This document shows, one piece after another, positions 49,936 to 58,304 of a DNA stretch of 64,000 nucleotides (within the stretch, counting starts at the first letter, position 1; every line of letters begins with the position of its first letter). The position numbers and the translations under genes were made by a program. Below the pieces are notes generated by a model, which was not told where the DNA came from, ran no database searches, and worked only from the letters and a program-made list of their open reading frames with translations. Source of the stretch: Polynucleobacter finlandensis (lineage in GTDB: Bacteria; Pseudomonadota; Gammaproteobacteria; Burkholderiales; Burkholderiaceae); assembly GCF_018881755.1 (NCBI RefSeq), contig NZ_JACVPS010000004.1, positions 124,001-188,000 of the forward strand, given 5' to 3'.

Positions 49936-51485
49936 CAAGCCATTCCTCCTGCCGCTAGAAGAACATGTTCTTGATCAGAGAAATCAAACTTTTTACCTTT
50001 GATTTCTTGTGTAGACTCATGACCTTTTCCAGCCACCAATACAACATCAGCCGCATCAGCATGGCGCACTGCAGCCATAATTGCAGCGGCTCTATCTGGA
50101 ACAGTTTGAATATTCTGCGCACCGGAATCCATACCAGAAAGGATCATCGAAATAATCGCTTCTGACTCTTCTGATCTTGGGTTATCGCTAGTCAGCACAA
50201 TATGGTCTGCATGCTGCTGCGCAACTTTTCCCATTTGTGGGCGTTTACCAGCATCTCGATCTCCGCCACACCCAAAGACACACCAAATCTTGCCACCGCG
50301 CGCGCTGGCAATCGGACGCAAAGCGAGTAATGCTTTTGCTAGCGCATCAGGGGTGTGGGCGTAATCCACTACAACCACTGGCCCTTCAGATTTTTGGGTT
50401 TTATTTAAGGAAATCAATTCCATGCGACCCGCTACTGGTCGCAATAATCCCAAGCGCTTACTTGCCTGATCGCATGTCATACCCTGCGTTAGCAGAACTG
50501 CCCACACTGCCAAGCAATTGCTCAAATTAAATTCGCCTAATACAGCAGCGTTAACAACATGCTCTCCAATGCCCTGATGTACAAATAGAGAAGCGTAGCC
50601 GGCACCAGTCAGCACCGTATCTTTTGCATAAATACAATGCAGACGATCGCCAAACTTCTCAAAGCCAGCAAACTGATCTTTGCTTAGGGCGTAAGCCCAT
50701 ACTTTGATGCGATTCTGCGCTAATAATTGAGCAGCTAATTCACGACCAAACACATCATCCAGATTAACGACTGCATGCTCAACACCAGCCTGTTGGAATA
50801 GTTTTGCTTTTGCCTCAGCGTAATTGGCCATGCTGCCGTGATAATCAAGATGATCTTGACTGAGATTGGTGAATACGGCGCAATTGAACTCTAGACCTGC
50901 CACTCGATCTTGCTCTAATGCATGCGATGAGACCTCCATCGCAATGTATTTAGCGCCTGCATCTAAAAACGCCTTTAACTGCGATTGCAAACGCGGTGCA
51001 TCTGGGGTGGTATAGCCAGTCTGTACGAGAGCTCCAGGAAAACCTGAGCCTAAGGTACCCAAAACAGCTGCGCGACTATTGGGCTGATCTAGCGCCTGAG
51101 CAAGCCATTGAGTAACAGTCGTTTTTCCGTTGGTGCCAGTCACACCGATCACTTGCAATTGCTTGCTGGGAAAGTCATACCACTGCGCGCATAAGCGCCC
51201 TGCTTGCTTTGCCAAGTTCTCAACAGCAAAGAATTTTGGATGATCCTGATACTCACCACTCATGCCTGCTGGATCAAATACCACTGCTTGAGCGCCGTTC
51301 TTTAAAGCAGCTGATATATAGTCGCGTCCGTCACGCAAAGCTTTGCCATGACCAACAGGGTAGGCAAAGAAAATATCACCAGCTTCAACTTGGCGACTAT
51401 CAGCAGTCACTTTGGCTGATGGATCAAGCAAGCCATGCAAATGGTTTATTAAGTTAGCGGGTTTTATATTCATCACCACACTCAT
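49935..51485 (-). CDS. murE: UDP-MurNAc-L-alanyl-D-glutamate--meso-diaminopimelate ligase
   Basis: MurE adds meso-DAP. The ATP loop [14 protein letters not shown], the Lys-bearing SQDHLDYHG region and the DAP-recognition motif DNPRSEE are present; DNPR marks DAP rather than lysine specificity. The 516 residues are normal. ATGA overlap with ftsI. Confidence 0.97.
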   Translation of the reverse strand: MSVVMNIKPANLINHLHGLLDPSAKVTADSRQVEAGDIFFAYPVGHGKALRDGRDYISAALKNGAQAVVFDPAGMSGEYQDHPKFFAVENLAKQAGRLCAQWYDFPSKQLQVIGVTGTNGKTTVTQWLAQALDQPNSRAAVLGTLGSGFPGALVQTGYTTPDAPRLQSQLKAFLDAGAKYIAMEVSSHALEQDRVAGLEFNCAVFTNLSQDHLDYHGSMANYAEAKAKLFQQAGVEHAVVNLDDVFGRELAAQLLAQNRIKVWAYALSKDQFAGFEKFGDRLHCIYAKDTVLTGAGYASLFVHQGIGEHVVNAAVLGEFNLSNCLAVWAVLLTQGMTCDQASKRLGLLRPVAGRMELISLNKTQKSEGPVVVVDYAHTPDALAKALLALRPIASARGGKIWCVFGCGGDRDAGKRPQMGKVAQQHADHIVLTSDNPRSEESEAIISMILSGMDSGAQNIQTVPDRAAAIMAAVRHADAADVVLVAGKGHESTQEIKGKKFDFSDQEHVLLAAGGMA

Positions 51486-53254
51486 CTTTTTAAAACCACA
51501 GGTTGTACTGATACGCTAGCAGCATGAATCTCAGCAGGGCCAGCACCATCTAAAACTGCTTGCTTCACACTGCTATCTGGAAGCACATTGAGCGTACGCA
51601 AAGTCTCGCTCACAATCGTGGAGAACACAGGCGCCGCAACATCGCCGCCATAATGGCTTCCACCAGTTGGCTCATCAATCATGACCGCAACTACAATCCG
51701 TGGCGCACTAATGGGAGCAATGCCAGCAAAGTAAGCGCGATAAGAATTCCCGTAACCTTTGCCAACTAACTTATGTGCAGTACCTGTTTTACCGCCAACG
51801 CGATAGCCCTCTGCCTGCGCTTTTACTGCAGTACCGCCCGGCTCAGTCACAGTCTCAAGCATGGCACGCATTTCTGTAGCCGTTTTAGCTGAGAGCACTT
51901 TTGTGCCGGGTTTGAATTCTGGACTGCGCTCAATGGTCAATGGCACTAACTCGCCGTCACGCGCAAAAATTGTATAAGCACGCGCAACTTGAAATAAAGA
52001 TGCGGAGATGCCATAACCAAAAGCAATACGAGCTTGATCTGTGGGCATCCACTTCTTGAATGGATGAACCGTGCCAGCCACCGCGCCAGGAAATCCAATT
52101 TTAGGAGCCTGTCCCAAACCCACGGAGGTATAAAAATTCCACATCTCTTCTGCAGAGAGATTATTCATGGCAATTTTGGCTGTACCAATATTGCTAGACT
52201 TTTGAATAATCTCTGCAACGGTTAAGTTTCCGTAGGGGTGGGTGTCAGTAATAGGCTTAGGGCCAACTAAATACTTGGCACCAATCACCATATTAGTATT
52301 TGGTGCTACTACGCCCTTCTCTAGTGCAATAGAGATCGTGAAAGGCTTCATGGTCGACCCCGGCTCAAACGTGTCTGTCATAACACGATTGCGCAACTGC
52401 TCGCCACTCAAATTTCTACGGTCATTCGGGTTGTAACTTGGGTAATTTGCCAAGGCCAAAATTTCGCCTGTTTGCGTATCCAAGACTACTGCACCGCCAG
52501 CTTTGGCATGATGCTGCTCAACCGCACCCTTCACAGCGTTGTAAGCTAGATACTGAATCTTGCTATCAATAGAGAGTTGAAGATCCTTACCGTTTTGTGG
52601 GAACTGTTCAATCGCGACATCTTCAACCACTCGGCCCAAGCGATCTACTACTACACGTCGCTGACCAGGGTGTCCTGCTAAATCTTTTTCCCGCGAAAGC
52701 TCCATACCCTCTTGGCCACGATCTTCGACGTTGGTAAACCCTACCACGTGTGCCATTGCCTCACCCTCTGGATAAAAGCGACGGTACTCATTATTTAAGC
52801 CAATGCCTGGGATTTCTAATTTCTTAATCTGCTGTGCAACATCTGGATCAACCTGACGTTTCAAGAAAACCTGCTTACGCTCTTCTTTTAGTTTTTTACG
52901 CAAATCATGCTCACTCATCTGCAAAAGACTCGCAAGCTTCTGAACTTTTTCTGCAGATAAATCATCTGGAACGGTATCGTTATATGCAATCACCGACTTT
53001 GCTTCAAGACTAGTAGCTATGACCATGCCGTTACGATCTAAAATTTTTCCACGACTCGCCGGCAACTCAAGTTCCCGCTGTGTGCCACGCACCGCTTTTG
53101 CTTCATAAAATGCATTTCCTGGGCCTTGGATCCAGAAAGCCCGAATCAAGAGCAATGTAAATACAAAAAACAAAAGGAATAACATCAAGCGCGACCGCCA
53201 CATTGGCAGACGCAACACTAAATTTGGAGAAGTAGAAAATCCTACCGGCCTCAC
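51482..53254 (-). CDS. ftsI: Septal transpeptidase FtsI (PBP3)
   Basis: FtsI crosslinks septal peptidoglycan. One membrane helix (about 22-42) precedes a pedestal domain and the transpeptidase domain, with S300 in FEPGSTMKPF (SxxK), SSN (in IQKSSNIGTAKI) and KTGT (in VGGKTGTAHK). The start appears to be GTG overlapping the ftsL stop by 4 bp. The 590 residues are normal for the family. Confidence 0.96.
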   Translation of the reverse strand: MRPVGFSTSPNLVLRLPMWRSRLMLFLLFFVFTLLLIRAFWIQGPGNAFYEAKAVRGTQRELELPASRGKILDRNGMVIATSLEAKSVIAYNDTVPDDLSAEKVQKLASLLQMSEHDLRKKLKEERKQVFLKRQVDPDVAQQIKKLEIPGIGLNNEYRRFYPEGEAMAHVVGFTNVEDRGQEGMELSREKDLAGHPGQRRVVVDRLGRVVEDVAIEQFPQNGKDLQLSIDSKIQYLAYNAVKGAVEQHHAKAGGAVVLDTQTGEILALANYPSYNPNDRRNLSGEQLRNRVMTDTFEPGSTMKPFTISIALEKGVVAPNTNMVIGAKYLVGPKPITDTHPYGNLTVAEIIQKSSNIGTAKIAMNNLSAEEMWNFYTSVGLGQAPKIGFPGAVAGTVHPFKKWMPTDQARIAFGYGISASLFQVARAYTIFARDGELVPLTIERSPEFKPGTKVLSAKTATEMRAMLETVTEPGGTAVKAQAEGYRVGGKTGTAHKLVGKGYGNSYRAYFAGIAPISAPRIVVAVMIDEPTGGSHYGGDVAAPVFSTIVSETLRTLNVLPDSSVKQAVLDGAGPAEIHAASVSVQPVVLKR

Positions 53255-53517
53255 TTAGCCTCCTTGAGGTACAAAGTACGCTCAGGTGAGATTGGTATCA
53301 TGCGCAATTGATTACGAGCTACATCGCGGATGCGTGCAGACTTTGAAAGATTGCGTTGCTCATACTCCAAGCGCAACCAATCTTGATTTAATTTGTATTC
53401 TTCAACTTGTGTGCGCTCTAAAGCCACAAATAATTTACGCGCGCGCTGCTGCGCTGCCACTAAAGATAATGCGCAAATCAGTAATAGGGATAATAAGGTT
53501 AGGGTTGCACGATTCAT
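53251..53517 (-). CDS. ftsL: Cell division protein FtsL
   Basis: FtsL is a small bitopic divisome protein. Here 88 residues start with a membrane helix ([19 protein letters not shown]) and continue as a periplasmic coiled-coil with [20 protein letters not shown] and the closing [13 protein letters not shown]. Identification rests on this layout and its place between rsmH and ftsI; sequence conservation in the family is low. It overlaps both neighbours by 4 bp. Confidence 0.93.
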
Positions 53518-54464
53518 GCAAGTACTCCCAAACGTTTTTCTGCGATACGCATAATTGCTGAACGAGCACGTGGATTCTCATTTACCTCTTCACTGCTAGG
53601 TTTAACGCGGCCAATAATTTCCAAAGCACTTTGTGGCAAGTCTTTTTCACGCACAGGCAGTCCACGCGGAACTTCTACCTTTGCATGAGACTGCAAAAAT
53701 TGCTTCACAATCCGATCTTCCAAAGAGTGAAAGCTAATGACTGCCAGTCGAGCACCAGGCTTTAGTAATGTCAATGCAGCTTTAAGGCCTAATTCCAAAT
53801 CTTCAAGCTCGCGATTAATAAAAATCCGCAATGCTTGAAAAGTTCTTGTGGCTGGATCTTGCCCAGCCTCTCTCGTGCGCACCACAGTCGCAACTAGGCT
53901 AGCCAATTGCAAAGTGGTTTTTGGTGACAAACCTTCCTCGCGTTTTGCCACAATAGCTTTAGCGATCTGAAATGCAAAACGCTCTTCCCCGTAAGTCTTA
54001 ATCACGCGTGTGATTTCCTCCTGAGGCGCTTGTTCTAACCATGCTGCAGCTGTCAAACCATGATCGGTATCCATCCGCATGTCGAGCGGACCTTCGCGAC
54101 GAAAAGAAAACCCCCGATGAGCTTCGTCTACCTGCGGAGAACTGATACCCAAGTCCAGCAAAATGCCATCGACTGATTCTGGTTCCGCGTACTGATCCAT
54201 CTGCGCAAAACTGTTGTGCACAATCGTCAAGCGTGGATCTTTGATTGCATTGCCCACTGCGATCGCGTCCAAATCCTTGTCGAATGAAATCATGCGCGCA
54301 TTCGGACCCAACTCTTTGAGTAATGCTTGCGTATGACCGCCACGGCCAAAGGTCCCATCGATCAATAGAATGTTTTTTGATGAATCTGAATCTTGAATGA
54401 GCGGACTGTTGATCAGCGCCGTCACCGCCTCGGCCAGTAACACTGGGCGATGAGTTATGTTCAT
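53514..54464 (-). CDS. rsmH: 16S rRNA m4C1402 methyltransferase
   Basis: RsmH (MraW) methylates C1402 of 16S rRNA. The SAM site [14 protein letters not shown], the motif [30 protein letters not shown], and the C-terminal [14 protein letters not shown] and [10 protein letters not shown] are all present. The 316-residue length is normal. The start is 12 bp after mraZ. Confidence 0.97.
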
Positions 54465-54476
54465 GGCACCCTGTCA

Positions 54477-54908
54477 TCAAAAATTAAATTGCTTTAGTGC
54501 TTCAGGCATGCCTTGCGCAATGGCAGCCTGTTCTTTTGCGGAGTATGTTGCTGAATCCCACAACTCCAAGTGACTACCCATGCCAAGCAGCATCACTTCT
54601 TTTTCAATGCCCGCTGCGGCACGCAGCTCTGGGCTAACCAAGATTCTTCCTGCGCTGTCCAAATCTACCTCGGCAGCATTGCCAAGGAAAATTCGGCGCC
54701 ACCAATGGGCATCCATTGGCAACTGCGCAACTTTTGATCGGAAACTTTCCCACTCCGGCCGAGGAAATAGCAAAAGACATCCATCGGGGTGTTTGGTGAG
54801 CGTGACTCTGCCTTCGCCTTGTACCAACAAGGCGTCACGATGCTTTGCCGGCACAGACATGCGGCCTTTTGCATCTAAATTGAGAGCTGACGCACCTTGA
54901 AACACCAA
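54477..54908 (-). CDS. mraZ: Transcriptional regulator MraZ
   Basis: MraZ represses the dcw cluster in E. coli by binding direct repeats near its own promoter. The 143 residues hold two SpoVT/AbrB-like folds ([22 protein letters not shown] and [19 protein letters not shown]). It is the first gene of the cluster, and three GTGGGA-like boxes lie just upstream, so autoregulation is very likely. Confidence 0.97.
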
Positions 54909-54911
54909 TTA

Positions 54912-54937
54912 CCCCACTTTTTCACACTTCCTCCCAC
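54912..54937 (-). promoter_or_regulatory. Three MraZ boxes in 10-bp register
   Basis: On the minus strand GTGGGA, GTGTGA and GTGGGG occur at exact 10-bp steps (54932-54937, 54922-54927, 54912-54917), between the -10 element and the mraZ start. This matches the known MraZ operator layout. Confidence 0.85.
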
Positions 54938-54964
54938 TTTAGAGGATCAATATAAGAGGGTCAA
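54936..54964 (-). promoter_or_regulatory. sigma-70 promoter of the dcw cluster
   Basis: TTGACC (54959-54964) and TAAAGT (54936-54941) are spaced by 17 bp on the minus strand. The -10 element touches the first MraZ box, which explains repression. Confidence 0.75.
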
Positions 54965-54996
54965 GTGTTTTAAGGGCTTTTTTTAGGAATTTCTCT

Positions 54997-55012
54997 AGTG
55001 ATTACAATCACT
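54997..55012. repeat. 16-bp dyad upstream of the dcw promoter
   Basis: AGTGATTACAATCACT has 7-bp symmetric arms (AGTGATT/AATCACT) around AC, about 33 bp upstream of the -35 element. It has no adjacent U-run, so a protein-binding site is likelier than a terminator. The regulator is unknown. Confidence 0.4.
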
Positions 55013-55119
55013 TAGCGTCGTGTGTTAAGAAAATGGTGATATAAAAATTACTACTTGAAACAAGAGCTTGGAAAATACACTTAAGAATAGGTCTTAGCTA
55101 TTTGCCCCAATAATGGGTC

Positions 55120-55147
55120 AATATACTGTATTAAAGAACAGTATATT
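55120..55147. promoter_or_regulatory. LexA-type SOS box between coq7 and mraZ
   Basis: The perfect 10-bp arms AATATACTGT (55120-55129) and ACAGTATATT (55138-55147) surround 8 bp, giving CTGT-N8-ACAG, the LexA core of beta- and gammaproteobacteria, within TACTGT...ACAGTA. It lies 33 bp past the coq7 stop and about 155 bp upstream of the dcw -35 element. -10-like hexamers (TATACT) lie within the arms. No ORF starts between it and mraZ. Confidence 0.6.
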
Positions 55148-55180
55148 AATTTTGGCATTACCCCAACAGCGCATCAAAAA

Positions 55181-55810
55181 TCAGATTTTATAGGCACTCG
55201 TTGTCATGATCTTAGACATCGCCTTCATCATCTGCTGAACGGGTCTGGGTAAAGACGCTCCGCCCGCTTGCACGGCAGCCTGTCCATGCTCAATTTCATC
55301 TAGACGCATTTGATCAACAATTGCACGCGAACGATGATCATTTTGGGGTAATTTTTCTGAGTGACTTTCGAGATGATTTTCTACTTGCTTTTCTGTTTCA
55401 GCAACAAATCCTAAACTCCACTTATCGCCCGCTAAGCCAGCAATCATACCAATTGCAAAGGATCCGGCATACCAAAATGGATTGAGATAGCTCGTATGAG
55501 AACCGAGCTCATGTAAGCGTGTTTCGCACCAAGCTAAGTGGTCCATTTCTTCTTGCCCAGAATGATGCAACATCTCCTGAATCTCTGGATTTCTAGCAAA
55601 TAATTTTTGTGATTGGTAAAGTGCTTGAGCGCAAACTTCACCCACATGATTTACCCGCATTAAGCCGGCAGCATGCTCTCGCTCGGAAGACTCCAAAACC
55701 ACTTCAGAGTGCACATCTGCACCCGGGGTTTGCCGGTGTGCATTGGCACCACCAACGACCGACCGAAGGGCGGTATCAAACTCAATAATGAAGCGATCTA
55801 ACAGGGCCAT
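55181..55810 (-). CDS. coq7: 2-polyprenyl-3-methyl-6-methoxy-1,4-benzoquinone monooxygenase (Coq7)
   Basis: Coq7 hydroxylates demethoxyubiquinone in ubiquinone synthesis. The di-iron ligands are visible as four E/ExxH elements: [40 protein letters not shown] and [10 protein letters not shown]. The 209-residue length fits the betaproteobacterial form. It follows bioB by 14 bp and is probably co-transcribed with it. Confidence 0.94.
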
Positions 55811-55824
55811 TTCTGCGCAAAAGC

Positions 55825-56862
55825 TTAGATGAGAACTTCAGCTTTGCAATTCTGCTTTGTCTTTAATCCAAGCTCTGCCAATAGTGCACGGTCTTGTTCT
55901 GCCTCGGGATTACCGGTAGTAAGTAGTTGCTCACCATAGAAAATAGAGTTGGCACCAGCCAAAAAACACATGGCCTGAACCGCTCTTCCAAGCTCTTGGC
56001 GACCAGCAGATAAACGCACTCTAGCTTTAGGCATCGTAATGCGCGCAATCGCAATCGTTCTCACAAATTCGAGCGGATCCATTGGCTTCTGATCCGCCAT
56101 AGGGGTACCAGCAACCGGCACCAAATGATTGATCGGAACTGACTCTGGATAAGGGCTCAAATTTGCCAATTGAGCCAAGAAAGCTGCCCGCTGTTCACGC
56201 GACTCCCCCATACCCACAATACCGCCACAGCAAACCGACATCCCTGCTGCGCGAACATTAGACAGTGTGTCTAGGCGATCCTGATAACCCCTCGTTGAAA
56301 TAACCGAGCGATAAAAATCTTCACTGGTATCCAGGTTATGGTTATAGAAGTCCAACCCCGCTTCCTGAAGGGCCTCGGCCTGATCAGCCTCCAACATACC
56401 CAAAGTGGCACAGGTCTCTAAGCCCAGGGCTTTTACGCCCTTAATCATGGCAGTCACTTTTTCAATATCTCGGTCTTTAGGCTCGCGCCAAGCAGCGCCC
56501 ATGCAAAAACGGTTGGAGCCGGCAGCTTTAGCTGCTTTAGCAGCCTCCAGCACTTCTTCCAAATCCAGCAACTTGCTCGCCTTGACGTCTGTGTCATAAC
56601 GCGCAGCTTGAGGGCAATACCCACAATCTTCTGGACAACCGCCAGTCTTAATGGATAAGAGGGTTGCCAATTCCACATCGCCTTCGGGGAAGTTGGTACG
56701 ATGCGTCTGCGCAGCCTCTAACATCAAATCATTGAATGGCAAGTCAAATAAAGCCTCAATCTGGGCAACAGTCCAGGCGCCAGAAGCATTTACCTCCCTA
56801 TGTAAATCTGCCTTTGATTTGACATGGGTAAGGGGTTTTTCAGTACTTTGTACGTCCAGCAT
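55825..56862 (-). CDS. bioB: Biotin synthase
   Basis: BioB is a radical SAM enzyme that inserts sulfur into dethiobiotin. The cluster-binding triad C76, C80, C83 lies in [12 protein letters not shown], and [15 protein letters not shown] and [10 protein letters not shown] follow. The 345 residues are normal. It is divergent from bioAFD across 86 bp in which I see no BirA-type operator. Confidence 0.97.
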
Positions 56863-56948
56863 GGGTAAATTCCAGAAAATAGATCAAATCAAGTCATAAA
56901 CATAACAGATGGAAGCTTAGATTAGGAAAAACTAGTGGTCAAATATCA

Positions 56949-58304
56949 ATGATGAAAAAGAAGGTTATTCCTGATGTAAATCAAAAGCACTGGGTTGAAA
57001 GAAGCTTGGAGGCGGTTTGGCATCCCTGCACCCAGATGAAACATCATGAGTCTTTTCCGCTCATTGCCATTACCCATGGCAAGGGGCCTTGGCTCTACGA
57101 CGATAACGACAACGCCTTCTTAGATTGCATTAGCTCCTGGTGGACCAACTTATTTGGACACTCCAATCCACGCATTAATCGGGCCATTTGCAATCAATTA
57201 GAAAAAATTGAGCACGTGATGCTAGCGGGCTTTACCCACCCACCCGTTGTCCAACTTTCTGAAAAGCTGTCCGCTTTAACAAAAGGTAATTTGGGGCATG
57301 CCTTCTACGCATCCGATGGCGCATCTGCAGTGGAGATAGCCTTGAAGATGAGTCACCACTTTTGGCAACTCAATAACAAGCCCAATAAGAAAAAGTTTGT
57401 TTGCTTAGAAAATGGTTATCACGGAGAAACGCTTGGTGCGCTAGCGGTAACAGACGTTGCTATTTTTCGAGACGCCTATGGCTCACTCCTGCAAGATGTA
57501 TTTACCGTTGCGTCGCCAGATGCCCGCAAAGCGAAGTCTGGTGAAAGCGCTGAGGATGTTGCCAAGCAAGCTGCCAATGCTCTTGAAAAACTGTTTGAGC
57601 AAGAACATCAGAATATTGCTGCCATCATTGTTGAACCACTAGTTCAGTGTGCAGGACAGATGGCAATGTACTCACCAGAATATTTGCGGCAAGTCAGAAT
57701 GCTCTGCGATCGCTTTGATATTCACCTCATCGCGGATGAGATTGCTGTTGGCTGCGGACGCAGCGGTAAATTTTTTGCCTGTGAGCACGCTGGTATCTGG
57801 CCAGACTTTCTGACGCTATCCAAAGGGATTAGCGGTGGCTATCTTCCATTGTCGCTCTGCCTCACTACAGAAAAAATGTATCGCGCCTTCTATAGTGATC
57901 AAACAAAAAATGGTTTCTTACATTCACATTCCTACACGGGAAATCCTCTAGCGTGTTCAGCAGCTCTAGCTTGCCTAGAGATATTTGAAACAGAAAATAT
58001 TCTCGAGAAGAATCTGATCCAGGCGCAAGAACTTGCCAACTCATTTGCTTGGGCTAAAACAGATGCGCGCATTGAGCACTGGCGTCAGCAAGGGATGATT
58101 TTGGCCTTTGATATCAAACATGAATCGATGAAAAACCCAAATGCCTTCCCACGTGAAATGTTCTCCGCAAGCTTAGATGAAGGCGTACTCATTCGTCCTA
58201 TTGGCAATACTGTCTATGTCATGCCCCCTTATATTCTGTCTTCGACTGAAACTCTGCAAATGGGCGAAGCAGTACAGCGTGCATTAAATAAGGCGCTCGC
58301 ATGA
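56949..58304 (+). CDS. bioA: Adenosylmethionine--8-amino-7-oxononanoate aminotransferase
   Basis: BioA converts KAPA to DAPA with SAM as amino donor. The PLP lysine lies in LTLSKGISGGYLPLS, with HGETLGALAVTD and IADEIAVGCGRSGKFFACEHAGIWPD before it; WHPCTQM near residue 20 is typical of BioA. The 451 residues are normal. It overlaps bioF by 4 bp. No Shine-Dalgarno is obvious. Confidence 0.96.
   Translation: MMKKKVIPDVNQKHWVERSLEAVWHPCTQMKHHESFPLIAITHGKGPWLYDDNDNAFLDCISSWWTNLFGHSNPRINRAICNQLEKIEHVMLAGFTHPPVVQLSEKLSALTKGNLGHAFYASDGASAVEIALKMSHHFWQLNNKPNKKKFVCLENGYHGETLGALAVTDVAIFRDAYGSLLQDVFTVASPDARKAKSGESAEDVAKQAANALEKLFEQEHQNIAAIIVEPLVQCAGQMAMYSPEYLRQVRMLCDRFDIHLIADEIAVGCGRSGKFFACEHAGIWPDFLTLSKGISGGYLPLSLCLTTEKMYRAFYSDQTKNGFLHSHSYTGNPLACSAALACLEIFETENILEKNLIQAQELANSFAWAKTDARIEHWRQQGMILAFDIKHESMKNPNAFPREMFSASLDEGVLIRPIGNTVYVMPPYILSSTETLQMGEAVQRALNKALA

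Follow-up and report, generated by a model that had tools for sequence, protein, structure and literature searches.

A predicted LexA operator between coq7 and mraZ at the head of the dcw cluster in Polynucleobacter

The spacer between coq7 and mraZ in Polynucleobacter finlandensis carried an exact match to the LexA operator consensus, and this predicted operator probably controls a LexA-repressed second promoter that lies 159 bp upstream of the main mraZ promoter Pmra and would read into mraZ and the dcw cluster. The site was found in a window of 64,000 nucleotides (the whole stretch of DNA that was analyzed) and was compared across 61 genomes of the genus; labels beginning with G, C, and L are our own handles for genomes, contigs, and loci. 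Because rsmH, ftsL, and an ftsI-like gene lay downstream of mraZ (Table 1), the locus was recognized as the head of the dcw cluster; the ftsI ORF was named from its place and from PBP2/FtsI-type matches below the cut-offs. The closest named matches of the Coq7 protein came from uncultured betaproteobacteria (90 and 84% identity), followed by Polynucleobacter species.

Table 1. Coordinates of genes and of predicted regulatory features around the LexA-type site (positions within the window)
Feature	Position	Strand	Description
rsmH, ftsL, ftsI	51482..54464	-	dcw genes downstream of mraZ; TIGR00006 and TIGR02209 over cut-off
mraZ	54477..54908	-	First dcw gene, presumed first target; TIGR00242, 116.7 bits (cut-off 98.35)
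Putative MraZ operator repeats	54912..54937	-	GTGGGAGG...GTGGGG, overlapping Pmra; conserved in genus alignment
Main mraZ promoter Pmra	54936..54964	-	TTGACC-N17-TAAAGT; consensus match, conserved in the genus and recognizable in other family genera
Predicted leader of SOS transcript, up to Pmra	54965..55113	-	Inferred start near 55111-55113; older conserved non-coding DNA
Predicted -10 hexamer of LexA-controlled promoter	55120..55125	-	TATATT, facing mraZ; one-sided conservation, umuD layout
Predicted LexA operator (SOS box)	55124..55143	.	TACTGTATTAAAGAACAGTA on + strand; exact pattern, recA/umuDC motif, genus conservation
coq7	55181..55810	-	Upstream co-directional neighbor, not thought to be a target; NF033656, 324 bits

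The predicted operator and the other LexA-type sites of the genome

TACTGTN8ACAGTA was taken as the consensus of the proteobacterial CTGT-N8-ACAG type of LexA operator. Positions 55120-55147 had the structure AATATACTGT-ATTAAAGA-ACAGTATATT, composed of two perfect 10-bp arms separated by an 8-bp spacer that was not itself palindromic, and thus the "28-bp perfect dyad" of the earlier note held for the arms only; the near-ideal LexA site that it had placed between the two genes was borne out, with zero mismatches to the consensus at 55124-55143. The box lay 37 bp past the coq7 stop, reading toward mraZ, within a 272-bp spacer between two minus-strand genes. It was the sole zero-mismatch instance in the window, and 3e-5 exact matches were expected in this spacer from base composition; sites with up to three mismatches numbered 18 in the window versus 16.4 expected, so that the exact match alone was notable.

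Four exact instances were present in the 2.28-Mb genome: (i) upstream of recA (L001), (ii) upstream of umuD and umuC (L003), (iii) in the coq7-mraZ spacer, and (iv) at L004. Allowing up to two mismatches gave 39 sites versus 95 for the reversed control, i.e., near-matches were not enriched; 11 of the 35 sites with one or two mismatches were examined as loci, 10 of these 11 lay inside ORFs of at least 100 aa, and near-matches were therefore left out of the regulon. Across the 61 genus genomes, the exact pattern occurred 178 times per strand versus 7 times for the reversed control, with three exact sites per genome in 35/61 and two to four in 56/61.

The LexA protein on which the case of the earlier note depended was encoded in the genome (TIGR00498, 227 bits, over the NCBIfam cut-off), and its HTH/DNA-binding region aligned closely to the solved LexA structure 7ocj, which we take to be that of E. 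coli LexA. Across the genus, a LexA match over the cut-off was obtained in 57/61 genomes and any match, UmuD included, in 60/61. The exact motif was shared with recA and umuDC, the earlier note having proposed a check against recA and lexA, and lexA itself displayed only a degraded 3-mismatch site (AGCTGTATACAATCCCAGTA on the lexA strand; L016:2208-2227) overlapping its own start codon, which suggests weak self-repression of lexA. Taken together, the consensus match, the LexA gene, the motif shared with recA and umuDC, and the conserved place predict that 55124-55143 is an operator bound by LexA.

Two further kinds of exact site were observed. The palindrome at L004 (L004:1501-1567; G000:C13:10701) overlapped the 5' part of a short ORF with weak similarity to TnpB, an ATG starting at the last base of the palindrome, and it may be an insertion-sequence palindrome instead of a LexA site. 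At L182 (G058) and L180 (G010), exact boxes stood some 125 bp ahead of an ORF that exceeds 190 codons and encodes hydrophobic stretches; it may be an additional SOS gene.

Conservation and history of the box within the genus

The coq7-mraZ spacer was read in 60 of the 61 genus genomes and was readable in 59, those left out being G022 (fragmented coq7) and G055 (contig end). The box, allowing up to two mismatches, was found in 45 of the 59 readable spacers (34 exact, nine with one mismatch, and two with two) and absent from 14. Its ACAG half-site on the mraZ side was intact in 45/45 and its CTGT half-site on the coq7 side in 41/45; the damaged coq7-side halves (G002, G033, G060, and G017, at L035, L047, L052, and L054) read CTGG in three cases and TTGG in G017, and the mraZ-side half was intact in all four. 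The coq7-side flank of the operator varied; the mraZ-side flank and some bases of the 8-bp spacer were conserved (one spacer column in 45/45), and thus conservation was not limited to the LexA half-sites.

These changes bear on the reading of the dyad as an RNA hairpin, for example at the coq7 3' end, or as the site of another palindrome-binding protein. Perfect 10-bp arms directly past coq7 would suit a hairpin; however, no T-run was present behind the dyad, and the T-to-G changes in 4/45 boxes faced an invariant A, so that the pair was broken and not compensated. The half-sites, moreover, were identical to those of recA and umuDC, which speaks against a hairpin and another protein alike, and we consider either of them very improbable.

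Outside the genus, 38 family genomes of other genera (a subset of the 99 family genomes with a MraZ match) contained no CTGT-N8-ACAG in the mraZ upstream sequence that was read (325-1295 bp). On a Coq7 plus MraZ protein tree, a single change accounted for the distribution of the box; the branch concerned had an SH-aLRT of 98, and every site in the six outgroup rows had four mismatches or more. The one change on the tree, together with the absence from the 38 genomes, points to a single gain: in all likelihood the box arose a single time within the genus and has been retained by all 45 readable descendants, a reading tempered by the tree itself, which came from a quick search and contained several long branches and incomplete rows (66 rows, four of them Coq7-only and two with partial MraZ).

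The comparison was also applied to named loci. A box was found in 24 of 28 readable Polynucleobacter-like loci (L218-L240, plus L243 with two mismatches); L241, L242, L244, and L246 had no box, and L245 ended early. These Polynucleobacter-like loci probably overlap the genus genomes in many cases and were kept apart from the 45/59 count. Of the other named loci (L247-L297, 51 in all), 13 were read, and their best sites within 700 bp had four to five mismatches; a Pmra-like site after coq7 was not found in five of these 13.

Predicted promoter and leader between the box and mraZ

The operator ran directly into TATATT on the mraZ side in 35/45 genomes and into the mirror hexamer on the coq7 side in 6/45. 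The same TATATT joint was harbored by 8 of the 11 umuD boxes recognized among the fetched genus loci and by 0/5 recA boxes, and a further probable umuD site (L183), truncated at the end of its contig and not among the 11, was without it. The genus umuDC promoter thus shared the order of box and hexamer with the mraZ-facing site but differed in spacing: an umuD ATG was located 11 bp after the umuD box in the P. finlandensis genome, whereas some 215 bp, with a further promoter in between, separated mraZ from its box. A T-rich stretch preceded the operator and a good -35 was not seen, the partner TTAATA (55144-55149) being weak and a consensus match only; promoter-consensus matches in 53500-57000 numbered four versus a shuffle mean of 4.6, which was not above chance.

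The distance from the box to the Pmra -35 was 159 bp in 34/45 genomes and 156-159 bp in 42/45, and that from the coq7 stop to the box ranged from 5 to 80 bp over the 45. From the coq7 stop to Pmra, (i) 181-259 bp were counted with the box and (ii) 135-137 bp (nine genomes) or 167-182 bp (five genomes of the other lacking clade) without it; added DNA beside coq7 therefore tracked the box relative to the first lacking clade and hardly relative to the second.

A LexA-controlled promoter was favored because TATATT was kept mainly on the mraZ side and at a near-fixed distance from Pmra; the 10/45 boxes without exact TATATT, the four damaged coq7-side halves, the partly conserved 8-bp spacer, the 3-mismatch site at lexA, the recA boxes, the chance-level consensus matches, and the poor -35 count against it. 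LexA might instead serve only as a roadblock or silencer that halts read-through from bioB-coq7 into dcw and has no promoter of its own. Such a role would agree with the co-directional coq7 and mraZ, with a box 37 bp past the coq7 stop in a spacer in which no terminator-like site was found, and with the weak promoter consensus at the box, yet it leaves unexplained the one-sided -10-like hexamer held in common with the umuD layout, and we regard it as quite unlikely. The weak -35 would also be compatible with a site that LexA binds with little regulatory effect; a single gain kept in 45/45 readable descendants, despite changes in the coq7-side flank, argues against so idle a site, to which we give very little credence.

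Conserved non-coding DNA of about 150 bp separated the operator from Pmra, which was assumed to correspond to the promoter that has been mapped in Burkholderia cenocepacia (PMC7761207). The elements CGCTAAGT..TTGT, Pmra, and the repeats were recognized by eye in most other genera read and in box-less members of the genus, so that their conservation predates the box and gives no evidence for an SOS RNA. The motif CGCTAAGTGATTGTAATCACTAG at 54995-55017, of a conserved non-coding type lying some tens of bp upstream of Pmra, was close to CGCTAAGTC.TTGTTCT in many other Burkholderiaceae (by eye, among L080-L117).

An SOS RNA at this locus would be a separate non-coding product of the LexA promoter, ending before mraZ and acting in trans or by attenuation. 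It would fit a stretch downstream of the box that is conserved but holds no ORF of consistent length, and precedents are (i) UpsM, a 206-nt RNA from the mraZ leader of Rhodobacter (PMC5089854), and (ii) DinR, an RNA that is cut from a LexA-controlled mRNA and represses ftsZ in Klebsiella (PMC10907235). Rhodobacter sphaeroides has a 268-nt mraZ leader, and the UpsM promoter is its sole mraZ promoter (PMC5089854); a long leader and a distant promoter would be shared with the present locus, but the UpsM terminator had no counterpart in the P. finlandensis spacer, and the terms LexA and SOS gave no matches in the available part of that paper. Against an SOS RNA, much of the conserved leader DNA was also present in box-less species, the RNA fold of 54901-55114 was nothing unusual (z-score -0.06), no Rfam family reached its gathering score, and terminator-like sites were found in 5/45 leaders under a looser scan and not in the P. 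finlandensis spacer. The earlier note had offered either a damage-controlled upstream dcw promoter or an SOS RNA starting at the box; the former was favored, and the latter, as a free-standing RNA, found no positive support and appears unlikely.

Small peptides were also considered. Four ORFs of at least 20 aa (lengths 20-29 aa) overlapped the P. finlandensis spacer, and the sole mraZ-strand ORF clear of Pmra (55081-55158, 25 aa) started upstream of the operator and crossed it; it was rejected as an SOS peptide, since it begins upstream of the predicted transcript start. A small SOS peptide encoded after the box was likewise rejected: start codons recurred in the 45 aligned leaders (frames of at least 12 codons; 30/45 at one column and 39/45 at another, plus 42/45 at two columns in the region of Pmra and the MraZ repeats), but the frame lengths differed.

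Possible consequences for cell division

We infer a course of events that would run from LexA binding, through a damage-induced promoter and read-through into dcw, to an effect on division. In the undamaged cell, LexA seated on the operator, which overlaps the -10, would block the mraZ-facing promoter, and mraZ would be read from Pmra. Upon DNA damage, LexA would be cleaved, RNA polymerase would start near 55111-55113 on the minus strand, and transcription would proceed over an untranslated leader of about 200 nt, through Pmra into mraZ, and then into rsmH-ftsL-ftsI and the rest of dcw. Since MraZ acts as a repressor of Pmra in E. coli (cited in PMC7761207), what would most likely follow is a burst of MraZ made from a start site outside its own control and not covered by MraZ, with an altered supply of division genes during SOS. 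The MraZ pulse could lower the output of Pmra, or equally the read-through could raise dcw supply, and any direction assigned to the effect on the division genes is a guess.

The effect on division is the weakest step of this proposal and draws on studies of MraZ in other bacterial species. In B. cenocepacia, a single promoter, PmraBc, can drive 15 dcw genes; MraZ binds DNA immediately upstream of mraZ and regulates this promoter (PMC7761207). Fragments of 161 and 289 bp displayed comparable promoter activity there (PMC7761207), and thus conserved DNA further upstream would have no known role in that species. PmraBc belongs to the same family and is a MraZ-bound promoter; it differs from the present locus in that the best LexA-like site (at L272) has four mismatches. 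In Dietzia, excess MraZ gave elongated, slow-growing cells (PMC9602371).

The earlier note took a coupling of SOS and division at the DNA level to be new, but links of this kind had already been published: (i) a LexA site before a mraZ homologue in a gut Gram-positive metagenome, bound by B. subtilis LexA in an EMSA (PMC3998124), and (ii) LexA repression of the 5' region of the E. coli dcw cluster at three SOS boxes (PMC3265435, section 12). The former likewise is a LexA operator before mraZ and differs in its Gram-positive hosts and its origin from metagenome contigs, and the description available for it gives neither a lineage history nor a promoter anatomy; for the latter, LexA control of the same cluster is stated, and the Polynucleobacter site is distinguished by being exact, upstream of Pmra, and conserved. 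The E. coli K-12 cluster was rejected as a sequence parallel, since the best site in 88500-94500 had three mismatches to TACTGTN8ACAGTA (one of them in the CTGT/ACAG core) and lay inside ftsI. The available part of a comparative SOS study that included multi-chromosome Burkholderiaceae gave no matches to mraZ (PMC3323433). Among the matches listed in the literature search, which covered few subscription papers, no betaproteobacterial mraZ SOS site and none of the Polynucleobacter arrangement were found, SOS-dcw links as such being already in print.

In the best-studied bacteria, SOS halts division via a dedicated inhibitor protein. SulA (PF03846) had matches in 2 of 120 family genomes, one of them over the cut-off, and the P. 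finlandensis genome was not one of the two; a divergent SulA, such as the putative one of B. cenocepacia (pBCA006), may escape this model. Thirteen of the 14 genomes without a mraZ box harbored LexA boxes (0-1 mismatch) before an ORF of 35-40 residues (L186-L193 and L198-L202 in the 13 genus genomes; e.g., L179, minus strand), and a small-protein search of the fourteenth, G056 (78% complete), gave no match. The small ORF had a good ribosome site, with 56-65 nt between the operator start and the ATG in the three cases that were measured, and two LexA boxes were present in G003, G025, and G045. Its product displayed one hydrophobic stretch (by eye) and the conserved end GE(W/F)..(R/K).EW(V/I)C; no Pfam family was found for three members tried, and an NCBIfam search with one member gave only two matches, both far below the cut-off.

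Homologues lacking any LexA site with under three mismatches were found in G010, G044, G053, and G055 (mraZ spacer unreadable). A probable homologue was also found in the P. finlandensis genome (C13:6894-6971, L203; E 0.004 with a single query and 2.7e-5 with the profile), its best upstream site having five mismatches, and the other genus members gave no convincing match to the single small-protein query. Run against the 120-genome family sample, the small-protein profile matched the P. finlandensis genome only.

The small size and the SOS control are the grounds for guessing that the protein is a candidate SOS division inhibitor, comparable in kind to YneA and SosA; it may instead be an SOS membrane peptide. 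A swapped SOS checkpoint would be one reading of the pattern: an older LexA-controlled protein of 35-40 residues and membrane type would have been freed from LexA, mraZ would have come under LexA, and damage-induced MraZ, made from a start site beyond its own repression, would be the brake by shutting Pmra and the division genes. We hold this reading to be possible but rather doubtful, and since the pattern of box and small protein amounts to one or two events on the tree, a replaced checkpoint stays a suggestion.

A genus with few consensus LexA sites thus keeps one at the head of its division and cell wall cluster after a single gain, and the near-complementary distribution of this box and the SOS-controlled small protein offers a natural case in which one checkpoint has possibly replaced another. 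If the function proposed here for the LexA-repressed promoter is true, DNA damage would set the supply of division genes at the level of transcription in these free-living freshwater bacteria.
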